Below, in pieces: positions 3,928-11,511 of a stretch of DNA of 64,000 bases (the first letter of the stretch is position 1; every line of letters starts with the position of its first letter). The notes beneath the pieces were generated by a model. That model searched no databases and was not told the origin of the DNA. It worked only from the letters and a program-made list of their open reading frames with translations. Source of the DNA: an uncultured Bacteroidota bacterium (lineage in GTDB: Bacteria; Bacteroidota; Bacteroidia; Chitinophagales; Chitinophagaceae); NCBI GenBank assembly GCA_903831575.1, contig CAIKYB010000036.1, forward strand, positions 1 to 64,000, written 5' to 3'. A program made the translations under genes and the position numbers.

Positions 3928-4587
3928 CTAATCAATCAGCTGGTTTTTCATAGCGTAAAATACCAACCCTACTGAATTCTTCACACCAAAACGCTCCATC
4001 AGCCTATCTTTTATGGCTTCTACCGTTCTTGGACTAATATCCATTTTCCCTGAAATCTCTGCAGCCGTAAATTCCATACAAACCAAGGTCAACACTTCTT
4101 TTTCCCTATCGCTTAACACCACTTCTGAAGTTAAATTCGGATTGAACTTTTGCTTGGCATAATTTTTCTTGATCAGCACTTTATTTACAAACGGATTAAG
4201 GTAAAACCCAGTACGAACAACATCTGTAATAGCTTTTTTAATTTCAGTGGGATCTGTACTTTTTAACAGATAACCCGCAGCTCCGCAATCCATCAAATGC
4301 CCTACAAATCTTTCATCTTCATACATCGTAAGAATAATCACTCTAATACCAGGAAAGTTTTTTGTGATCAATTTAGTCGTATCAATACCATCCTTAACAG
4401 GCATTTTTAAATCACACAATACTACATCAGGTGTGAATTCCGGTATTTTAGCAAGTAGCTCTTCGCCATTATCAGCTTCCATCACAAACTTGATATTGGT
4501 GTATTGACGCATAGAAAGAATCACTCCTTTTCTAAAGATCTTGTGATCATCGGCAATAGCAACTTTTATTTGATTGGTTTCGCTCAT
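3928..4587 (-). CDS. LuxR/NarL-family response regulator (cassette 1)
   Basis: Cytoplasmic two-component transcription regulator of 219 aa. The receiver domain (about 7-125) carries the acidic pair D13/D14, phospho-acceptor D59 (CDLKMP) and the switch residues of LTM and K109. A C-terminal LuxR helix-turn-helix follows (about 152-215; LSDREKEVLTL...ISPRTVEAI). It is the last gene of a minus-strand set with the membrane protein at 5486-6160 and the histidine kinase at 4661-5482, its likely cognate kinase, 73 bp upstream. Three more regulators of the same family lie within the next 6.5 kb. The target genes are not evident. Confidence 0.93.
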   Translation of the reverse strand: MSETNQIKVAIADDHKIFRKGVILSMRQYTNIKFVMEADNGEELLAKIPEFTPDVVLCDLKMPVKDGIDTTKLITKNFPGIRVIILTMYEDERFVGHLMDCGAAGYLLKSTDPTEIKKAITDVVRTGFYLNPFVNKVLIKKNYAKQKFNPNLTSEVVLSDREKEVLTLVCMEFTAAEISGKMDISPRTVEAIKDRLMERFGVKNSVGLVFYAMKNQLID

Positions 4588-4660
4588 ACAATTGCTGTAA
4601 AAATAACAACATCTTTAGAAAGCACCAGTTTTAAAGTGAAATGAAAATTGAAGCTTGTAA

Positions 4661-5482
4661 CTAATATTTATTCCCTCTTGGAACCTCAAGTGTGATTTTA
4701 TAGTAGGTTTGACTTGGGTCAATTTCAAAAAATATTTTACCATTAAGCACATTAATTCTGCTCGCAATATTTTTCAAGCCTAATCCTTGTGCACTTTCGT
4801 TTAATTTATCAAATTCGTTTTGGGTAATCCCTTTGCCATCATGATGGATTCTCAAATACAAATTATTGCCGCTGCTGTTTTGAGTAAGATGTATAAAACC
4901 AGCGCTACTGTGTTTGAGCACATTATTGACCAATTCCTGAATAATTCTGAAAACAAGCAGCTCTTGTTCTACTTTTAATCTTTCTCTATAATCATGAAAT
5001 CTTGCGCTCGCATTAATCACACCACTTCCGCTGATTTTCTGAAACAAATCTGTTGTGGCACTTTCCAGGCCGAAATTTTTCAACGTAGGTGGCATCAAAC
5101 TATGACTGATATTTCGAATCAGTAAAATAGCATCATCAATAATTTGTTTAGCACTGCTTATACTCTGTAATTGTTGCGCCTTCTCTAAATTGACCAAATT
5201 ATCATTTAAATATAAACGTGCTGTTGCCAACAACGGACCTGCATCATCATGCAAATCAGCTGCAATGCGCTGGCGCTCCTCTTCCTGAAAACGAATAGAT
5301 GCATTCAGCAACGTTTGCTGCTTCTCAGATTCCAGCCTTTTCATCTGCATCTGGTAACGTATTACCTTTCTTTGATGAAAGATTACAAAGGCAATAATTC
5401 CAATCGCCAACGTAAGCATCCCTAACGTTCCAATGAACATCAGCCTGGAAATACCTGAAGAATCTGCCTGTAGTAAGTACAT
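4661..5482 (-). CDS. HisKA_3-type sensor histidine kinase (cassette 1)
   Basis: Inner-membrane histidine kinase of 273 aa. One transmembrane helix (about 13-36) is followed by a short coiled linker (39-70), a HisKA_3 dimerisation box with phospho-acceptor H78 in DLHDDAG, and a HATPase domain with N-box (QELVNNVLKH) and G-box (GLGLKNIASR). There is no extracellular sensor domain, only about 12 residues before the helix, so signal input probably comes from a partner. The obvious candidate is the multi-helix protein encoded 3 bp upstream. The H-box ends in AGPLL instead of the more common GQ(K/R)L. Confidence 0.92.
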   Translation of the reverse strand: MYLLQADSSGISRLMFIGTLGMLTLAIGIIAFVIFHQRKVIRYQMQMKRLESEKQQTLLNASIRFQEEERQRIAADLHDDAGPLLATARLYLNDNLVNLEKAQQLQSISSAKQIIDDAILLIRNISHSLMPPTLKNFGLESATTDLFQKISGSGVINASARFHDYRERLKVEQELLVFRIIQELVNNVLKHSSAGFIHLTQNSSGNNLYLRIHHDGKGITQNEFDKLNESAQGLGLKNIASRINVLNGKIFFEIDPSQTYYKITLEVPRGNKY

Positions 5483-5485
5483 AGC

Positions 5486-6160
5486 TTAATTGATATTATT
5501 GTTTGGTGATAAACTATCAAAGTTTAAATCTTTGGGAATTTGGAAGGTATATTTATTTATCGAGTGCTCTATTTCATTTTTCATTAATGCAAAAGACAAT
5601 ATTAAATTTTTAGAAATAGTAATTACACAATAAATTAATTTTAGTTGATTTTTAATACTAACATCCGCATTTGCAGAATTTTGGACTAATAAAATGTAAA
5701 AGAAGTTCCCGGTGAAATATACAAAAAGACCAACGCAAACCCAAAAGCTTATTGAAGAATAAATAGGACTCTCCTGATTAATTTGCATTTTTTCGAAAAG
5801 AAATAAAATAATAAAAATAATAAAAATCAAAAACTCTAATAAGGTAGGATTATTACTAAAAATCAAATTGCTATAACTCAAATAATCATAAATATTATAA
5901 CTCAAAAAAATAGGCAATAGCAATATCAAAATTAACTTAGTTGATTTTGACTCAAATAATCTAAGAAAGAAAATTGAAACAATGAAGTACTCAATAACTA
6001 AATGTATTCTTAAGGTGAGTATGTAATTAAAATAAGAAGTATTCACATAGATGAAAAAATAACATAACAAAGAGAAAACCATTTGAAAAATAGTATACAC
6101 GAAAAAAACCTTTAATGATTTTGTATTTATTTTATTTCTAAAATAAATACAAAATATCAA
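5486..6160 (-). CDS. putative multi-helix membrane partner of the kinase (cassette 1)
   Basis: Unrecognised integral membrane protein, at least 224 aa, very rich in I, L, F and Y, with about six or seven hydrophobic helices and a charged C-terminal tail (about 197-224). It is a paralogue of the protein at 8751-9437: both have a positively charged turn after helix 1 followed by K-(V/A)-FF-(V/I)-YT, and both sit directly before a HisKA_3 kinase gene. The first standard start in the frame is TTG at 6160, but the open frame continues to 6217 and its upstream residues align with helix 1 of the paralogue. The real start may therefore be a non-ATG codon upstream. A sensory or signal-relay role is inferred from context only. 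Confidence 0.7.
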   Translation of the reverse strand: MIFCIYFRNKINTKSLKVFFVYTIFQMVFSLLCYFFIYVNTSYFNYILTLRIHLVIEYFIVSIFFLRLFESKSTKLILILLLPIFLSYNIYDYLSYSNLIFSNNPTLLEFLIFIIFIILFLFEKMQINQESPIYSSISFWVCVGLFVYFTGNFFYILLVQNSANADVSIKNQLKLIYCVITISKNLILSFALMKNEIEHSINKYTFQIPKDLNFDSLSPNNNIN

Positions 6161-6664
6161 AGGTAGAATCTCAGATATTAACGTAATATTTAATAGATTT
6201 TTCAGATTGATAGTAATTTATTCAAAATTACTTATCTCTAACTCAAAATCAAAATTTAGTTATTATTACAAAAACATCAACCTGATTAAATGAAGAATAA
6301 ATCCATGCATACTAGGAATTTTTTTTGTGGTTTAAGATTAATTGCATGATAAACTTCAAACTTTCCCCATCTGGAAACAATAGGTTAGGTCTGCATCGTA
6401 AGAGTACGAAATTTAAAAAAACCTTTACTGCATTGACTTCTATTGATTTTTGGCGCATTTTTCGGAAAAATATTTAGGGTAAATGTACGAAATGAAAATA
6501 GTAATTTTACTATTTAAATCCTGTATCTTTACTTCGTATTTTTACGATACCTGAGCGAATGTGGATAATTATGTGGGGAACTTGGCTTGTATATAATAGG
6601 CTTATTCAACAAAATCTCGGTTCAAAAGATAGAATTTTGCATAACAATCACAACCTAAGAAAAG
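6161..6664. promoter_or_regulatory. divergent control region with repeated TCGTA-N4-TACGA sites
   Basis: A gap of about 500 bp between the divergent membrane-protein gene and the lone regulator gene. It contains two perfect 5-4-5 inverted repeats with the same arms, TCGTA-AGAG-TACGA (6396-6409) and TCGTA-TTTT-TACGA (6534-6547). A lone TACGA half-site lies at 6486-6490, and a 20-bp palindrome with AAATAGTAA arms at 6496-6515. A -7-like TATCTTTA (6524-6531) lies just before the second repeat. The layout suggests operators for one of the encoded LuxR-type regulators (inference). No ORF of note lies here. Confidence 0.55.
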
Positions 6665-7330
6665 ATGTCAACAGAAAACCAGATTAAAATTGCTATTGCA
6701 GATGATCACAAAATCTTTAGAGATGGCATCAAAATGGCTTTATCCAGTAAGACCAATCTGAAAATGCTTTGGGAAGCGGAGGATGGAAAGGATATGATGC
6801 ACAAGATTTCCATAAAAAAGCCTGAAGTCCTGCTCATGGATATCAGAATGCCTGAAATTGATGGCATCAATGCGATTCAAATTATTCGTAAAGAATATGA
6901 GGACATCAAAATCATTGTGCTTACCATGTATGATGACCAACAAATGATCAGCAAAATGATGGAAATGGGCGCCAATGCTTATCTCACCAAAACAACTGAC
7001 CCAGAAGAAATCTACGAAGCCATACTTACCTGCATGAACGACGATTTTTACTTTAATGAATTAGTGAACAGCGCGGTAATGGGCCGACTCATGCAGAAAA
7101 AAAATGTGAGACAACACTATGGCACCAATACTCCGGTTAGTTTTAATGAAAAAGAATTAAAAATATTGCAATTACTGGCTGAAGACAAAACGACTGAAGA
7201 GATTTCTAAAATCATTTTTTTAAGTCCCCGTACGATAGAAACAATCCGGCAGAATATGAAATCAAAAGTAAACGCGAAAACTATTGGAGGATTGATTATG
7301 TATGGCATGCGTAATAAATTGATTGAATAA
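6665..7330 (+). CDS. lone LuxR/NarL-family response regulator (divergent, first copy)
   Basis: Two-component regulator of 221 aa with a receiver domain (acidic pair D13/D14, acceptor D59 in MDIRMP, switch K109) and a C-terminal LuxR HTH (about 155-218). It is transcribed away from cassette 1 and has no kinase gene on its own strand. Its closest relative in the window is the lone regulator at 9909-10586: both share GAN-(A/S)-YLTKT and IYEAI--C in the same places, a relationship not shared with the two kinase-linked regulators. Its start (MSTENQIKIAIADDH) is fixed by similarity to the 4587 gene product. Its stop is 14 bp from the stop of the convergent regulator gene at 7344. Confidence 0.92.
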   Translation: MSTENQIKIAIADDHKIFRDGIKMALSSKTNLKMLWEAEDGKDMMHKISIKKPEVLLMDIRMPEIDGINAIQIIRKEYEDIKIIVLTMYDDQQMISKMMEMGANAYLTKTTDPEEIYEAILTCMNDDFYFNELVNSAVMGRLMQKKNVRQHYGTNTPVSFNEKELKILQLLAEDKTTEEISKIIFLSPRTIETIRQNMKSKVNAKTIGGLIMYGMRNKLIE

Positions 7331-7343
7331 CCAGAATAATCCA

Positions 7344-8003
7344 TCAAAATGTTACAATCCCGTTTTTTACTGCATAAATAGCCAAGCCCACTCTGCTTTT
7401 TACATCCAGCTTGTCAAATAAGGCATCCCGGTAACCATCAATTGTCCTTGGTGTAATTTTAAGTGCCGCGGCGATTTCTTTATAGGTTAAATCTGTACTT
7501 GCCAACCTTAAAAACTCCAACTCTTTTTCACTAAGCATGGATCTTTGTATGAGACTATTATCATTAGGATCTTTTTGAAAGAGATTAGCCAATTTACCTG
7601 TGGTGTCATGGGAGTAATAGAAACCCTTTTCAGCAACAGCATTTAATGCAGCCCTTAATTCTATTGGGTGGGTGTCCTTTTTCAGAAACCCTTTTACCCC
7701 AACTTGCAATAGTCTGATTAATGCAATTTCTGAGTCGTACATAGTCAAAATTAAAATATTGATTTCCGGATAACTGTTAAACAAAAATCTGGCCGTTTCA
7801 AACCCATCAAGAACAGGCATATTTAAATCGAGCAGTATCAAGTCTGGCTTCATCCCATCGGTGAGCATTTTTATAAGCTCATGACCATTAGGTAAAGAGG
7901 CAATTACACTGAACTCCTCAAATGTATTGATTAATGTGGCCAATGCATCTCTCAAAAGACCATGATCGTCAACCAATGCTACTTTAAATTTTTTCTGATT
8001 CAT
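7344..8003 (-). CDS. LuxR/NarL-family response regulator (cassette 2)
   Basis: Two-component regulator of 219 aa: receiver domain with acidic pair D12/D13, acceptor D59 in LDLNMP and switch K109, then a LuxR HTH (about 153-215; LSEKELEFLRL...ITPRTIDGY). Its start overlaps the end of the kinase gene at 7984 by 20 bp, which implies translational coupling and a one-to-one kinase/regulator pair. It is the most divergent of the four local regulators (VKGFLKKDTHP in place of the GANAYLTKT-type segment), so it may recognise different DNA. Confidence 0.93.
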   Translation of the reverse strand: MNQKKFKVALVDDHGLLRDALATLINTFEEFSVIASLPNGHELIKMLTDGMKPDLILLDLNMPVLDGFETARFLFNSYPEINILILTMYDSEIALIRLLQVGVKGFLKKDTHPIELRAALNAVAEKGFYYSHDTTGKLANLFQKDPNDNSLIQRSMLSEKELEFLRLASTDLTYKEIAAALKITPRTIDGYRDALFDKLDVKSRVGLAIYAVKNGIVTF

Positions 8004-8781
8004 TTAGTGGGATTTTAATTGTGATTTGTGTGCCTTTTCCTATGGCAGAAGTAATTGTGGCTTCTCCATTTAATAAAATTGCTCTGTTTTTTATATTACT
8101 TAAGCCCTGGCCTTCTTTTGAGATGGAGACATCAAAGCCGATGCCGTTGTCAACAATATCAATCTGAAGTAGCATACTAGTGTAATGAAGCAGGATGTGG
8201 ATTTCAGTTGAATGAGCATGCTTAATCGTGTTATTAATTGACTCCTGAACAATACGAAAAAGCATTAACTCTTTTTCAGCATCCATATAAATAGGTTCGC
8301 CGGTTAAGGTAAATTTGAATTTGTACTGCCCTGTTTTACCAACTTGCCCAATTTCATTTTCCAAGGCCTTAATAAGCCCCAGATTAGCAATAAAATCAGA
8401 GCTCATACTTCTGCTCAAATCTCTGAGGTCGCTTATTGATTCGGATATATTCTGAATGGCATCATTAATCAAGTCTTTGTAGAATTTGTTATTATCATAA
8501 CCGGAAGTATTAAGCTGAAGTTTAGCCAGTGATAATTTTTGTCCGATATTATCATGAATCTCCTTCGAAATATTTTGAAAGGTTGCTTCTTGAATTTTTA
8601 TCTGTGTTTTTAAAATTTCATTTTCATGTTTTGATTGCAATTCATTAACCCCTAAAAAATGTAACATTTGTTTTTTTTGATACTTATAAATCATTGAAAT
8701 GACAAGTAGAGATAATACTAAGAATAATAAAACTAAAATCACTATAAAAATTAAGACGTTTTCTTCTCTTGAATCGAGCAT
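7984..8781 (-). CDS. HisKA_3-type sensor histidine kinase (cassette 2)
   Basis: Inner-membrane histidine kinase of 265 aa. One N-terminal helix (about 9-31) is followed by a linker, the HisKA_3 H-box with H76 in EIHDNIGQKL, and a HATPase domain with N-box QESINNTIKH and G-box region GQGLSNIKNR. As in cassette 1, no periplasmic sensor domain is present. Its gene overlaps the upstream membrane-protein gene by 31 bp and the downstream regulator gene by 20 bp, so all three are probably translated as a coupled unit and the three proteins likely work together. Confidence 0.92.
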   Translation of the reverse strand: MLDSREENVLIFIVILVLLFLVLSLLVISMIYKYQKKQMLHFLGVNELQSKHENEILKTQIKIQEATFQNISKEIHDNIGQKLSLAKLQLNTSGYDNNKFYKDLINDAIQNISESISDLRDLSRSMSSDFIANLGLIKALENEIGQVGKTGQYKFKFTLTGEPIYMDAEKELMLFRIVQESINNTIKHAHSTEIHILLHYTSMLLQIDIVDNGIGFDVSISKEGQGLSNIKNRAILLNGEATITSAIGKGTQITIKIPLNESEKI

Positions 8782-9437
8782 ATAAAAGATTTAATAAAAA
8801 AAGAAAACATTATTATGTAACCAAACGGAGGAAGATTACATAAAATAAAATCATTAACAATATCATTTCGGATATTAAAATTCCTAGGGCTTACTAAATA
8901 AGACCAAAGCGAGAATATAGGAAAGCATATAATAGAACAAAGAAGCACTCCGGCAACTATCCAAAAAGTTGGATAATTTATAAGATTTTTTGTAGGGGGA
9001 TTGTTAAATAATTTATATAAATAAATAATTGATAAAATAATTAATCCGAAATGATTTGTTGCAAATGCATACTTATCTATAAATATATCAGAATTAAAAA
9101 CTTGATAGATTAATGCTATTAAGATAAATAATATAAATATCTCTAATATTATTATTCCCTTTTTATCTGGCATCATAAGTAATAAATATCCCCCTAAAAA
9201 GCCGAAATTAAAAACAAGTGAATAACGATTCATTAGATTAGCATGGGGAAATATGACTATATGGTTTAATGTTAAAAAAAGTGGAATCATTATTATTAAA
9301 CTTACTGAAGTATAGATAAAAAATGCTTTCATGTGCTTTGGATAACACCTGATTAGCAATGGAATAGAAAAAATGAAAGCCAATAAAATTGTTAAGCATT
9401 GAGCATTAAAAAAAAAGTATCTACTAAATTCACTCAT
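8751..9437 (-). CDS. putative multi-helix membrane partner of the kinase (cassette 2)
   Basis: Unrecognised integral membrane protein of 228 aa with about seven predicted helices. A short N-terminus and helix 1 (about 13-30) are followed by a charged turn (RCYPKHMK), helix 2 starting AFFIYT, and a C-terminal tail ending in QEKKTS. It is paralogous to the protein at 5486-6160. With the next two genes it forms an overlapping operon, which makes a role as membrane input module for the short kinase the simplest reading (inference). An ATG start at 9437 is preceded by a -7-like TAATATTG (9452-9445). Confidence 0.75.
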   Translation of the reverse strand: MSEFSRYFFFNAQCLTILLAFIFSIPLLIRCYPKHMKAFFIYTSVSLIIMIPLFLTLNHIVIFPHANLMNRYSLVFNFGFLGGYLLLMMPDKKGIIILEIFILFILIALIYQVFNSDIFIDKYAFATNHFGLIILSIIYLYKLFNNPPTKNLINYPTFWIVAGVLLCSIICFPIFSLWSYLVSPRNFNIRNDIVNDFILCNLPPFGYIIMFSFFIKSFICSIQEKKTS

Positions 9438-9559
9438 AATCCCACAATATTACACCACAACAATTAAACCTCCTTGAGAAAAACACAGTAAATTCCTGTT
9501 GTTTTACTCCTTACTCTAAAAATAAATTCTACGACTTTTGAATTTGTTGAGTTTCTACC

Positions 9560-9738
9560 GTACTCTGTGGGGCTATAACACCAGGGCGGATTAAATGCTG
9601 CTCTGGTGTTTTTAAAAAGACGGAAGATTAGCAGGCTAAGAATTTTGATGTTTGGATTAATTGCAAAACTCAGGGAGTATTCGAACTGGGTTAATCCAAA
9701 AATGAGGCGAATAAAATTTTATCGCCTCATTTTTTTTA
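9560..9738 (+). ncRNA. candidate structured small RNA
   Basis: Three consecutive hairpins on the plus strand. First, AACACCAG (9577-9584) pairs with CTGGTGTT (9603-9610), extended by G-U and G-C pairs to about 13 bp and followed by five T. Second, a perfect 10-bp stem TTTGGATTAA (9651-9660) / TTAATCCAAA (9691-9700) encloses an inner CTCAG/CTGGG stem. Third is a strong intrinsic terminator (9701-9737). The middle hairpin carries compatible G-U pairs, as in a maintained RNA fold. The 5' end is not clear. It matches no RNA family I recognise, and the limits are approximate. Confidence 0.45.
9701..9737 (+). terminator. intrinsic terminator of the sRNA candidate
   Basis: The arms AATGAGGCGA (9701-9710) and TCGCCTCATT (9722-9731) are perfectly complementary, the loop is AT-rich and partly self-complementary, and a run of eight T (9730-9737) follows. 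No protein gene ends upstream on this strand. Confidence 0.85.
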
Positions 9739-9908
9739 AAGCTGTTCTTACATATAAAATACCAATTAGGGAATATTGCTTACGAATTTACACAACATCA
9801 TAGTAAAATCCCTATTGAAGGGATAGGGTAAATACACGCGATCTTTTGTCATAAAACAATTAGACCTTGCATCCTACGTTATTAGAACCTAAAATAACAA
9901 CAATACTT

Positions 9909-10586
9909 ATGAGCCAAGAATCAAAAGAACCCATCAGAGTTATTATTGCAGACGATCATGTACTCTACAGAGCCGGCGTAAAAGCGGCACTTAGTTCTAA
10001 GACCGATATCAAAGTAATAGCAGAAGCAGATAATGGATCGCACTTACTCAACTTATTAAAGAATATTGAAGTTGACGTCATCCTACTAGATATTCAAATG
10101 CCCATCATGGATGGCATTGCCACATTACCTGAAATAAAAAAAATCAACCCACTCATCAAAGTAATCATGCTCACTATGGTTGACGACAATAGTATGATTA
10201 CAAAATTGATGGAGCTTGGCGCGAATAGTTACCTCACCAAAACAAGCGATAGTGAAATCATTTACGAAGCGATAAAGACTTGTTTTGAACAGGAATATTA
10301 TTTCAATTCTATGACCAATAAAGCGTTGTTGAGCAACCTCAAACAACGTACCCCTGCGATTCCTCAACAGTTATCTCCACAGGATGCTCAATTAAATGAC
10401 AAGGAAACAACTATTTTACGCTTGATGTGTGAGGAAAAAAGTACCAAAGAAATTGCTGATATGGTAGAATTAAGCCCACGAACAGTGGAAGCCATCCGTG
10501 ATCGTTTAAAAGTAAAAACAGGATCAAAAACTACCGCAGGACTAATCATGTACGCTGTAAAACATAAAATCATCGAAGAACTTTAA
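9909..10586 (+). CDS. lone LuxR/NarL-family response regulator (divergent, second copy)
   Basis: Two-component regulator of 225 aa: receiver domain with D15/D16 and acceptor D61 (LDIQMP), then a LuxR HTH with DKETTILRL and LSPRTVEAIRDRL. The frame is open from a TTG at 9867, but the ATG at 9909 (MSQESKEPIR) aligns with the N-termini of the other three regulators. It is the closest local relative of the regulator at 6665-7330 and holds the same position relative to its kinase cassette, which supports a segmental duplication. No kinase gene lies on the same strand; cross-talk with the neighbouring kinases is possible. Confidence 0.92.
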   Translation: MSQESKEPIRVIIADDHVLYRAGVKAALSSKTDIKVIAEADNGSHLLNLLKNIEVDVILLDIQMPIMDGIATLPEIKKINPLIKVIMLTMVDDNSMITKLMELGANSYLTKTSDSEIIYEAIKTCFEQEYYFNSMTNKALLSNLKQRTPAIPQQLSPQDAQLNDKETTILRLMCEEKSTKEIADMVELSPRTVEAIRDRLKVKTGSKTTAGLIMYAVKHKIIEEL

Positions 10587-10662: not shown

Positions 10663-11511
10663 ATGGCATTTATTAATTACAACGGAAAACTACTCGACGA
10701 ACACACCCCTATTATTGAAGCAGATAACAGAGGCTTGAAATTTGGCGACGGATTATTTGAAACCCTTAAGTTCAAAAAAGGAAAATTAATTCTGATAGAC
10801 GAACACCTCGCCAGACTTTGGAATGGGATGAAACTTCTGCAATTTGAATTCCCCAAACATTTTACGCCTGATTCATTAGAACAACAAATCCTGCAGCTTG
10901 TTAAAAAAAACAACCTTACTGCAGCAAGAATCAGACTTACCATCACCAGAGGAAACGGAGGATTATATGATGCTCAACAGCACACCCCTAATGTTATTAT
11001 TCAAACCTGGCCACTACCCGAAACCAATGGACAACTCAATGAAAACGGCTTACAATGCTGCATTTTTAGAGATAGTTTTAAGTCAATAGATATTTTCAGT
11101 AACAGTAAACACAACAATTTCTTAGTATACAGCATGGGTGCACTTTATGCAAAAAAACAGAAGTGCAATGATGCCATTATTCTCAACCAGCATGACCATA
11201 TTTGCGACAGCACTATTGCTAATATTTTTCTTATAAAAAACGAGGTGATCTATACACCTGCATTAACAGAAGGTTGTATCGCAGGAGTAATGAGAAACTT
11301 TATTATTAAAGCACTCCAAAAAGCAGGATATGAAGTTGTCGAGAACAACATATCTCAAGACGCATTACTCGATGCAGATGAAGTATTTCTTTCCAACTCG
11401 ATTTACAATATCCGCTGGGTTGCCGCAATAGAAAATAAAAATTACTCCAATAAAAAAACGCTCGAAATTTTTCGCTATTTAGAGCAAACAAATCCAGCTG
11501 ATTTTTGTTAG
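10663..11511 (+). CDS. class IV (PLP-dependent) aminotransferase / aminodeoxychorismate lyase-like
   Basis: Fold-type IV PLP enzyme of 282 aa, a family that includes branched-chain aminotransferases and 4-amino-4-deoxychorismate lyase (PabC, p-aminobenzoate synthesis). Visible motifs are RGLKFGDGLFET (23-34), the likely PLP lysine K149 in NSKHNNFL, and the cofactor-binding segment CDSTIANIFLI followed by TPALTEGCIAGVMR. The conserved acid before (S/T)T is Asp here rather than Glu. Substrate cannot be assigned from sequence; a PabC-like role is favoured by size but no pab gene is adjacent. Photolyase follows 19 bp downstream. Confidence 0.85.
   Translation: MAFINYNGKLLDEHTPIIEADNRGLKFGDGLFETLKFKKGKLILIDEHLARLWNGMKLLQFEFPKHFTPDSLEQQILQLVKKNNLTAARIRLTITRGNGGLYDAQQHTPNVIIQTWPLPETNGQLNENGLQCCIFRDSFKSIDIFSNSKHNNFLVYSMGALYAKKQKCNDAIILNQHDHICDSTIANIFLIKNEVIYTPALTEGCIAGVMRNFIIKALQKAGYEVVENNISQDALLDADEVFLSNSIYNIRWVAAIENKNYSNKKTLEIFRYLEQTNPADFC

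Follow-up and report, generated by a model that had tools for sequence, protein, structure and literature searches.

This study concerns a signalling locus at positions 3,928 to 10,586 of a 64,000-nucleotide (nt) stretch of contig CAIKYB010000036.1 (hereafter the window), which comes from an uncultured Bacteroidota bacterium of the family Chitinophagaceae with a genome of 2.44 Mb in 46 contigs. Here genes for a response regulator (RR), a kinase (HK) and a membrane protein (MP) lie on the minus strand opposite a gene for a lone response regulator, and this arrangement occurs twice in succession, with all eight genes present as a first-pass annotation of the DNA had described. We term the two units cassettes 1 and 2; the parts of cassette 1 are as follows:

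3928..4587, minus strand: RR1, response regulator (REC and GerE; Pfam), candidate cognate partner of HK1, behind which it lies in related loci
4661..5482, minus strand: HK1, NarL-type kinase without a sensor domain, with one transmembrane (TM) helix, HisKA_3 and HATPase_c (Pfam, hydropathy scan)
5486..6205, minus strand: MP1, membrane protein with seven predicted TM helices (7TM), probable sensor, start proposed upstream of TTG 6160 (frame conservation, structural model)
6203..6205, minus strand: CTG proposed to start MP1, at codon -11 counting from a conserved Glu (codon columns, promoter distance)
6212..6232, minus strand: palindrome AGTAATTT-N5-AAATTACT around the end of the -7 box (p 0.05 in the window alone)
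6223..6230, minus strand: -7 promoter box TAATTTTG, 17 nt before the CTG
6250..6253, minus strand: -33 element TTTG, spacing 19 to the -7 box
6398..6545, no strand assigned: five GTA-N4-TAC palindromes (first bases 6398, 6479, 6501, 6523 and 6536), probable (predicted) response regulator operators
6665..7330, plus strand: RRa, lone and divergent response regulator, with the highest conservation in the module (Pfam, identity)

Pfam searches recovered, all above cut-off, Response_reg and GerE in the four regulators and HisKA_3 and HATPase_c in HK1 (29.9 and 41.1 bits) and HK2 (32.1 and 49.4 bits). These are the defining domains of NarL/FixJ two-component systems, to which both kinases and all four regulators belong. 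The locus departs from such systems in that each kinase has a single hydrophobic helix (by a simple hydropathy scan) and no further domain above cut-off, hence no sensor of its own, while its usual neighbours include a separate 7TM protein and a second, divergent regulator. We scanned 101 loci, leaving L280 unused; all but one of them (L098) gave frames, and we took as our sample for the start codon of MP1 the 84 in which an MP1 frame directly precedes an HK1 orthologue (59 from the genus of the window and 25 from other genera). RRa is encoded on the opposite strand in 78 of these 84 (it is absent from L189, L194, L201, L203, L204 and L211), which argues that the four-gene arrangement is not due to chance. 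The alpha-1 stretch KIFR-x-G-[VI] is common to RR1 and RRa and absent from RRb and RR2; because of these shared residues it is plausible that HK1 feeds RRa besides RR1, giving the system a second output.

The membrane protein, which the first-pass annotation did not recognise and suspected of being the sensor, likewise escapes the family databases: neither MP1 (searched from 6160) nor MP2 has a match in Pfam at E<=1 or in NCBIfam at E<=0.1, the family has none in PHROGs at E<=1, and sequence comparison with solved structures returned only weak matches to unrelated proteins (best E 0.008). An Rfam search over 5400-10000 gave a single match, far under its gathering score. The AlphaFold model of MP1 is a 7TM bundle, and the Foldseek and VIA match lists are rich in folds like those of G-protein-coupled receptors, which makes such a fold for MP1 no more than a possibility beside that of a generic helical bundle. 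A profile built from 39 rows of the MP1 family has hits in 168 of the 294 Chitinophagaceae genomes searched, in 76 of 93 from the genus and in 32 of 295 from the class. The tie to the kinase is close: 111 of the 122 MP-family frames in the scanned loci of the family have a kinase directly downstream, and the other 11 are accounted for by contig ends or pieces of broken frames (4) and by extra MP-like genes behind RR1 (7). In the 18 class-search loci that were read (L136-L153, out of 38 places listed, with flanks of 1.5 kb only; L136 is from the same family as the window) the MP has a kinase of this type as its neighbour on the same strand in all 18, and a response regulator in 16. Thus, the situation that the first-pass annotation had named as fatal to its proposal, a family widespread apart from adjacent kinases, was not found.

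Conservation is distributed very unevenly over the module. Within the genus, the median identity with the proteins of the window (number of loci aligned in brackets) is 91% for RRa (59), 86% for RR1 (52), 80% for HK1 (58) and 37% for MP1 (58); in cassette 2 it is 78% for RRb (36), 66% for RR2 (32), 48% for HK2 (29) and 31% for MP2 (16). The fast-changing part of the system is the sensor candidate MP and the slow part is RRa. Taken together, the missing family match, the 7TM model, the adjacency to a kinase and the variability of MP make it highly probable that MP, HK and RR form a three-component system with MP1 as its sensor.

Several related loci carry further genes of this kind. An additional MP-like gene of about 225 amino acids (aa) follows RR1 in L068, L077, L078, L079, L082, L084 and L099 (profile scores 21-33), a hydrophobic open reading frame (ORF) of similar size, unflagged by the profile, occupies this place in L067, L069, L070, L072, L075 and L093, and in one member of the genus an MP1-like stretch interrupted by several stops has apparently decayed (G596:C1:2630419-2631101).

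The most unusual feature of cassette 1 is the start of MP1. The MP1 frame is open for 19 codons upstream of the listed start TTG 6160, which falls inside the first TM helix, and this upstream part contains the family motif SEilPLIFC; in the window no ATG, GTG or TTG lies between the in-frame stop and the first helix. Across the 84 loci, the interval from the upstream stop to the conserved Glu contains an ATG in three, at codon -12 in L076 and L080 and at codon -1, inside the first helix, in L069, so that only two of the kinase-linked orthologues, both at codon -12, have ATG at the start position. In 52 of them the start zone holds no ATG, GTG or TTG at all, and in the remainder the best canonical codon is TTG in 27, GTG in 3 and ATG in 2. 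MP1 thus has the mark of a gene held at a non-canonical start, namely the lack of a canonical codon at a conserved start position. The same rule applied to the neighbouring genes finds ATG in HK1 (83/84), RR1 (76/78), RRa (85/85), RR2 (42/42) and HK2 (42/42), that is in 328 of 331. As a rough control, made by position without alignment and including 8 frames that lack an MP score, 40 of the 41 listed MP frames of cassette 2 have ATG among their first three canonical codons (the exception is L075).

Where coding begins can be read from the pattern of substitutions. In 15 close pairs the differences per codon position 1/2/3 are 0.18/0.10/0.36 in the gene body and 0.16/0.10/0.32 at codons -8 to -1, but 0.28/0.28/0.29 at codons -24 to -13, which gives third-position excesses of 3.6, 3.2 and 1.0, respectively. 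The excess extends to codon -8 and is absent at -24 to -13; therefore coding begins between codons -12 and -8. Within this interval 57 of the 59 loci of the genus and 18 of the 25 others have either NUG at codon -11 or ATN at codon -12, against 0 to 60 for the same count at other column pairs tested, and CTG occupies codon -11 in 20 of 58 loci of the genus as compared with its share of 127 among the 1872 Leu codons of the gene bodies. Assigned by a single rule, the start codons of the 84 loci are CTG (20), ATT (18), ATC (15), ATA (13), TTG (6) and ATG (2), with 10 unassigned; hence CTG, ATT, ATC or ATA stands at the start position in 66. On this basis MP1 of the window is very probably initiated at a near-cognate codon. 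Just downstream, at codon +3 counted from the conserved Glu, Pro is encoded by CCT in 55 of the 59 loci of the genus and by CCC in 19 of the 25 others, as against lower usage in the HK1 genes (CCT in 100 of 383 Pro codons in the genus, CCC in 75 of 184 in the others), and a constraint at the nucleotide level immediately after the start is possible.

The codon is both variable and persistently weak. ATA, ATT and ATC are each one base removed from ATG, and on a tree of 72 loci the start codon has changed at least 23 times (11 when only two classes are told apart) and reached ATG twice, a figure obtained by parsimony on a FastTree tree of loci that share descent. This dependence on method and on common descent is the first of several points that weigh against a near-cognate start kept weak by selection. 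The third-position ratio is 1.0 at codons -11 to -9 (0.13/0.16/0.16 over the 45 codons of the 15 pairs), and this test leaves the exact first codon unfixed. Since the start zone includes a TTG in 16 of 59 loci of the genus and 11 of 25 others, and a GTG in 3 of 84, some loci may use an ordinary weak start. Nine of the 84 loci fit neither codon column, and the Ile column is uninformative taken alone, column -5 being likewise ATH in 60 of 84. Finally, AUG is under-represented near starts in Bacteroidetes generally (PMC6847099), and this accounts for some of the scarcity of ATG in MP1. Setting these points beside the evidence from the codon columns and the tree, we consider it likely that the weakness of the MP1 start has been selected for stoichiometry.

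A promoter lies directly upstream of the proposed start. The motif TAnnTTTG occurs in 89% of the 84 MP1 stretches (66 nt each) as against 2-15% in four control classes, and among the 69 loci usable for this measurement a TAnnTTT[GA] box ends a median of 16 nt before the start codon (10-90% range 15-20), with TTTG at a spacing of 19 from the box in 33 (0.8 expected). In probable promoters of F. johnsoniae 4-5 nt separate the box from the transcript start, and leaders average 33 nt, 87% of them exceeding 10 nt (both from PMC6847099). Subtracting 4-5 nt from the distance between box and codon, as in F. johnsoniae, gives a predicted leader of about 11 nt for MP1. Adenine is found at -3 in 17 of 23 NUG loci and 22 of 46 ATN loci, and at -12 in 19 of 23 and 39 of 46, in agreement with positive determinants described in PMC6847099.

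Around the end of this box there is a covarying inverted repeat whose mean z-score against dinucleotide shuffles is 1.7 over the 84 loci, compared with -0.01 at the promoters of RRa (85), 0.04 at those of other regulators, taken as regulators with a middling RRa score (106), 0.14 at those of other MPs (40) and 0.63 at those of other genes (130 of 401). When the right arms were swapped between the 78 loci used and the box was kept, the arm pairing score fell from 7.15 to 5.65 (standard deviation 0.15) and none of 200 swaps scored as high, a result that holds separately for 53 loci of the genus and 25 others (0/200 each). The repeat may be a DNA operator; its arms vary in sequence between loci, which speaks against a single conserved operator. 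It could instead be an RNA element: transcripts arising further upstream would fold and hide the start, and the proximal transcript would carry the right arm only. Both the swap and the weaker control promoters speak for this second reading. Nevertheless, only 34.5% of the 84 loci reach p<=0.025, with p 0.05 in the window, the mixed other genes show a small excess too, and the excess is greatest for repeats centred -1.5 or 0 to +1 nt from the end of the box, where the range from -1.5 to +1 takes in the best centre of just 38 of 78 loci. The swap also leaves differences in base composition between loci, and the upstream neighbour RRa is transcribed away from MP1. Protection from read-through of the IS10 type is the model for a start hidden on longer transcripts, though a literature search for such a precedent yielded nothing useful. 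We therefore hold the RNA element to be a possibility that falls somewhat short of even odds.

The stretch between RRa and MP1 is further distinguished by an array of palindromes. GTA-N4-TAC occurs there 248 times in 52 loci of the genus (14.2 expected) and 69 times in the 25 other loci (4.6 expected; the stretch there includes a small gene), and the window has five such sites here and none between MP2 and RRb. Other GTA-N-TAC spacings are not raised in the genus, and in the other loci spacings 2 (20 against 7.2) and 8 (19 against 4.6) are; TAC-N3-GTA, raised in the genus as well (55 against 11.2), perhaps stems from neighbouring sites. The array has the character of an operator to which RRa and/or RR1 might bind. 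Weighing against an operator of this kind, CGTANNNNTACG occurs at 9 places in the genome of the window, two of them in this intergenic stretch, as compared to 29 for the reversed pattern. A regulon sought by this motif found no enrichment over the reversed pattern in that genome, and none is claimed: the other seven places (two in long ORFs, one in an 87-aa ORF and four outside called ORFs) have no common theme, and the summed count of paired sites across 25 genomes of the genus is lower than in the reversed control.

Two other features of this stretch deserve mention. At 6560-6568, upstream of RRa, lies TGTGGATAA (TTATCCACA), which we take to be the DnaA-box consensus; the exact 9-mer is present, by orientation, in 11 and 7 of 52 loci of the genus and in 9 and 1 of 25 others, at a varying distance from RRa, where shuffling gives an expectation under 1 each, and a link of RRa control to replication is possible. 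Secondly, a conserved soluble protein of about 125 aa is encoded between RRa and MP1, in the direction of MP1, in 23 of the 25 loci that have MP1 in other genera (L095 and L096 lack it; examples are L067-L086, L094 and L099); in the genus of the window one of 59 loci (L193) has it. Two members checked against Pfam had no match, 649 relatives include no telling name among the 120 listed, and its model is of low confidence (predicted local distance difference test score 66) with no structural match at E<=0.001.

In light of these observations, we propose that the Chitinophagaceae have widely retained cassette 1 as a three-component system that has a second output and a near-cognate MP1 start selected to be weak, a reading to which we assign a probability of roughly 0.7. 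MP1 would sense a signal and control HK1, which, having no sensor domain, would transmit it, and RR1 and the divergent RRa would both respond to HK1. Translation of MP1 would begin at a near-cognate codon (CTG here, ATT, ATC or ATA elsewhere) on a leader of about 11 nt, and this weak start would keep MP1 scarce relative to HK1, a stronger one being selected against. RRa and/or RR1 would bind the GTA-N4-TAC array and regulate their own expression. More speculatively, the fidelity of initiation (IF3, initiator tRNA, the state of the ribosome) might itself be an input, such that relaxed start choice raises the level of the sensor and fires RR1 and RRa, the codon being free to drift with only its weakness selected; we regard this extension as rather doubtful.

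The first alternative to be weighed against this system is a plain duplication of a four-gene two-component module that is not specially regulated and in which the weak start is mere drift in a little-expressed gene. The first-pass annotation had taken the two cassettes for a tandem duplication, and the second one consists of the following genes:

7344..8003, minus strand: RR2, response regulator of cassette 2 (Pfam)
7984..8781, minus strand: HK2, kinase of cassette 2 without a sensor domain (Pfam, hydropathy scan)
8751..9437, minus strand: MP2, membrane protein of cassette 2, with an ordinary ATG start
9909..10586, plus strand: RRb, divergent lone regulator of cassette 2, from ATG 9909 (listed from TTG 9867)

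The overlaps noted earlier are exact, at 31 bp for MP2/HK2 and 20 bp for HK2/RR2. The gene order mirrors that of cassette 1, and RRa and RRb are, as had been said, the closest pair of regulators here (45% identity as against 27-40% for the other five pairs) and sisters on the tree (100/95), all of which would suit a duplication of the whole module. On a careful tree of 64 regulators, however, RR1 joins RRa and RRb (99/95) and RR2 stands apart, although a constraint uniting RR1 and RR2 is not rejected by the approximately unbiased (AU) test (p 0.22), nor on a quick tree of 80 rows (p 0.65), where the constrained tree is the better one. HK1 (100) and HK2 (98) form separate clades with no resolved sister relation, and that of HK2 takes in kinases from other contexts. 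The motifs said to be shared by the two membrane proteins amount to a weak kinship (hhalign E 9.5e-6, probability 83); as a single query MP2 finds only itself in the protein collection and matches 7 of 98 genomes of the family, its own included and the others weakly. Triads like that of cassette 2 occur alone elsewhere (L087-L091, L097). RRb orthologues are found in 44 of the 101 scanned loci, among which RRb adjoins RRa in L063, L071 and L085 and is separated from it by one small or unknown ORF in L093 and L096, with no second triad between. The sisterhood of the lone regulators stands, and a tandem duplication of the module is supported only in part: we conclude that the lone regulator, and possibly also the triad, was duplicated long ago and that the second cassette is not a recent tandem copy. 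We see in cassette 2 a paralogous triad next to RRb that evolves faster and lacks both the weak start and the array. As for drift, it would be expected to produce ATG often, this being one base from ATT, ATC and ATA, and yet at least 23 changes did so twice, while the ATG starts of the cassette 2 frames point the same way. We accordingly find duplication with drift unlikely as an account of cassette 1. After RRb the window encodes what is presumably a class IV aminotransferase-like protein (10663-11511), and many related loci have an ORF of about 283 aa downstream of RRb.

It is considerably less likely still that MP1 starts at an ordinary downstream codon such as the TTG at 6160, with the conserved 5' stretch serving as a leader and most of the first TM helix lost. 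That TTG is indeed present in the window, and predicted proteins in the collection (P0002 and others) begin there or later, but both the motif and the third-position excess reach upstream of it, the latter to codon -8. Furthermore, AlphaFold places residues 2-21 in the first helix of the bundle with high confidence, and the column of this codon (+4) is TTG in only 6 of 59 loci of the genus and TTA in 32. Entry into MP1 by frameshift or read-through from an upstream frame, which would dispense with a start codon near 6205 and for which the small gene lying upstream in the same direction in other genera might provide, is scarcely credible, given that this gene is found in the single genus locus mentioned above, that in the window both other frames are stopped just upstream of the motif with no ATG between, and that just 17 nt separate the end of the promoter box from the codon there, which would place any upstream frame off the MP1 transcript.

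Kinases fed by an accessory membrane partner are known from LiaFSR, VraTSR and UhpABC. The system of cassette 1 resembles these, set beside MP by description only, in that a membrane partner would feed the kinase, and differs in that no relation of MP to a Pfam, NCBIfam or PHROGs family was found. For the weak start of MP1 the nearest precedent is sigR of the Streptomyces sigR-rsrA pair. According to PMC5472188, the GTC start of sigR lets IF3 repress the gene and keeps its level below that of its partner, a canonical codon unleashes the regulon, and infC likewise uses a non-canonical start (ATT, or ATC in Streptomyces). The likeness is that a regulatory gene keeps a conserved non-canonical start codon, with sigR also preceding its partner gene in the operon; in contrast, the gene here is for a membrane sensor, the codon varies among CTG, ATT, ATC and ATA, the leader is predicted at about 11 nt and a palindrome lies on the promoter. 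Control of MP1 by IF3 would be purely hypothetical on this analogy. Our literature search, made at the level of listings and with subscription papers mostly outside its scope, recognised no work on the MP family, its start codon or the locus.

Few non-canonical start codons of bacteria have been characterised experimentally, as noted in PMC5472188, and a sensor gene whose start codon has changed at least 23 times while reaching AUG just twice would be a natural experiment on selected weak initiation. Gene predictions of the MP family start inside the first TM helix, in the window and in several relatives. Finally, the MP-HK-RR family, together with its promoter and probable, predicted operator, would offer a route to the signal that this system of the Chitinophagaceae may perceive.

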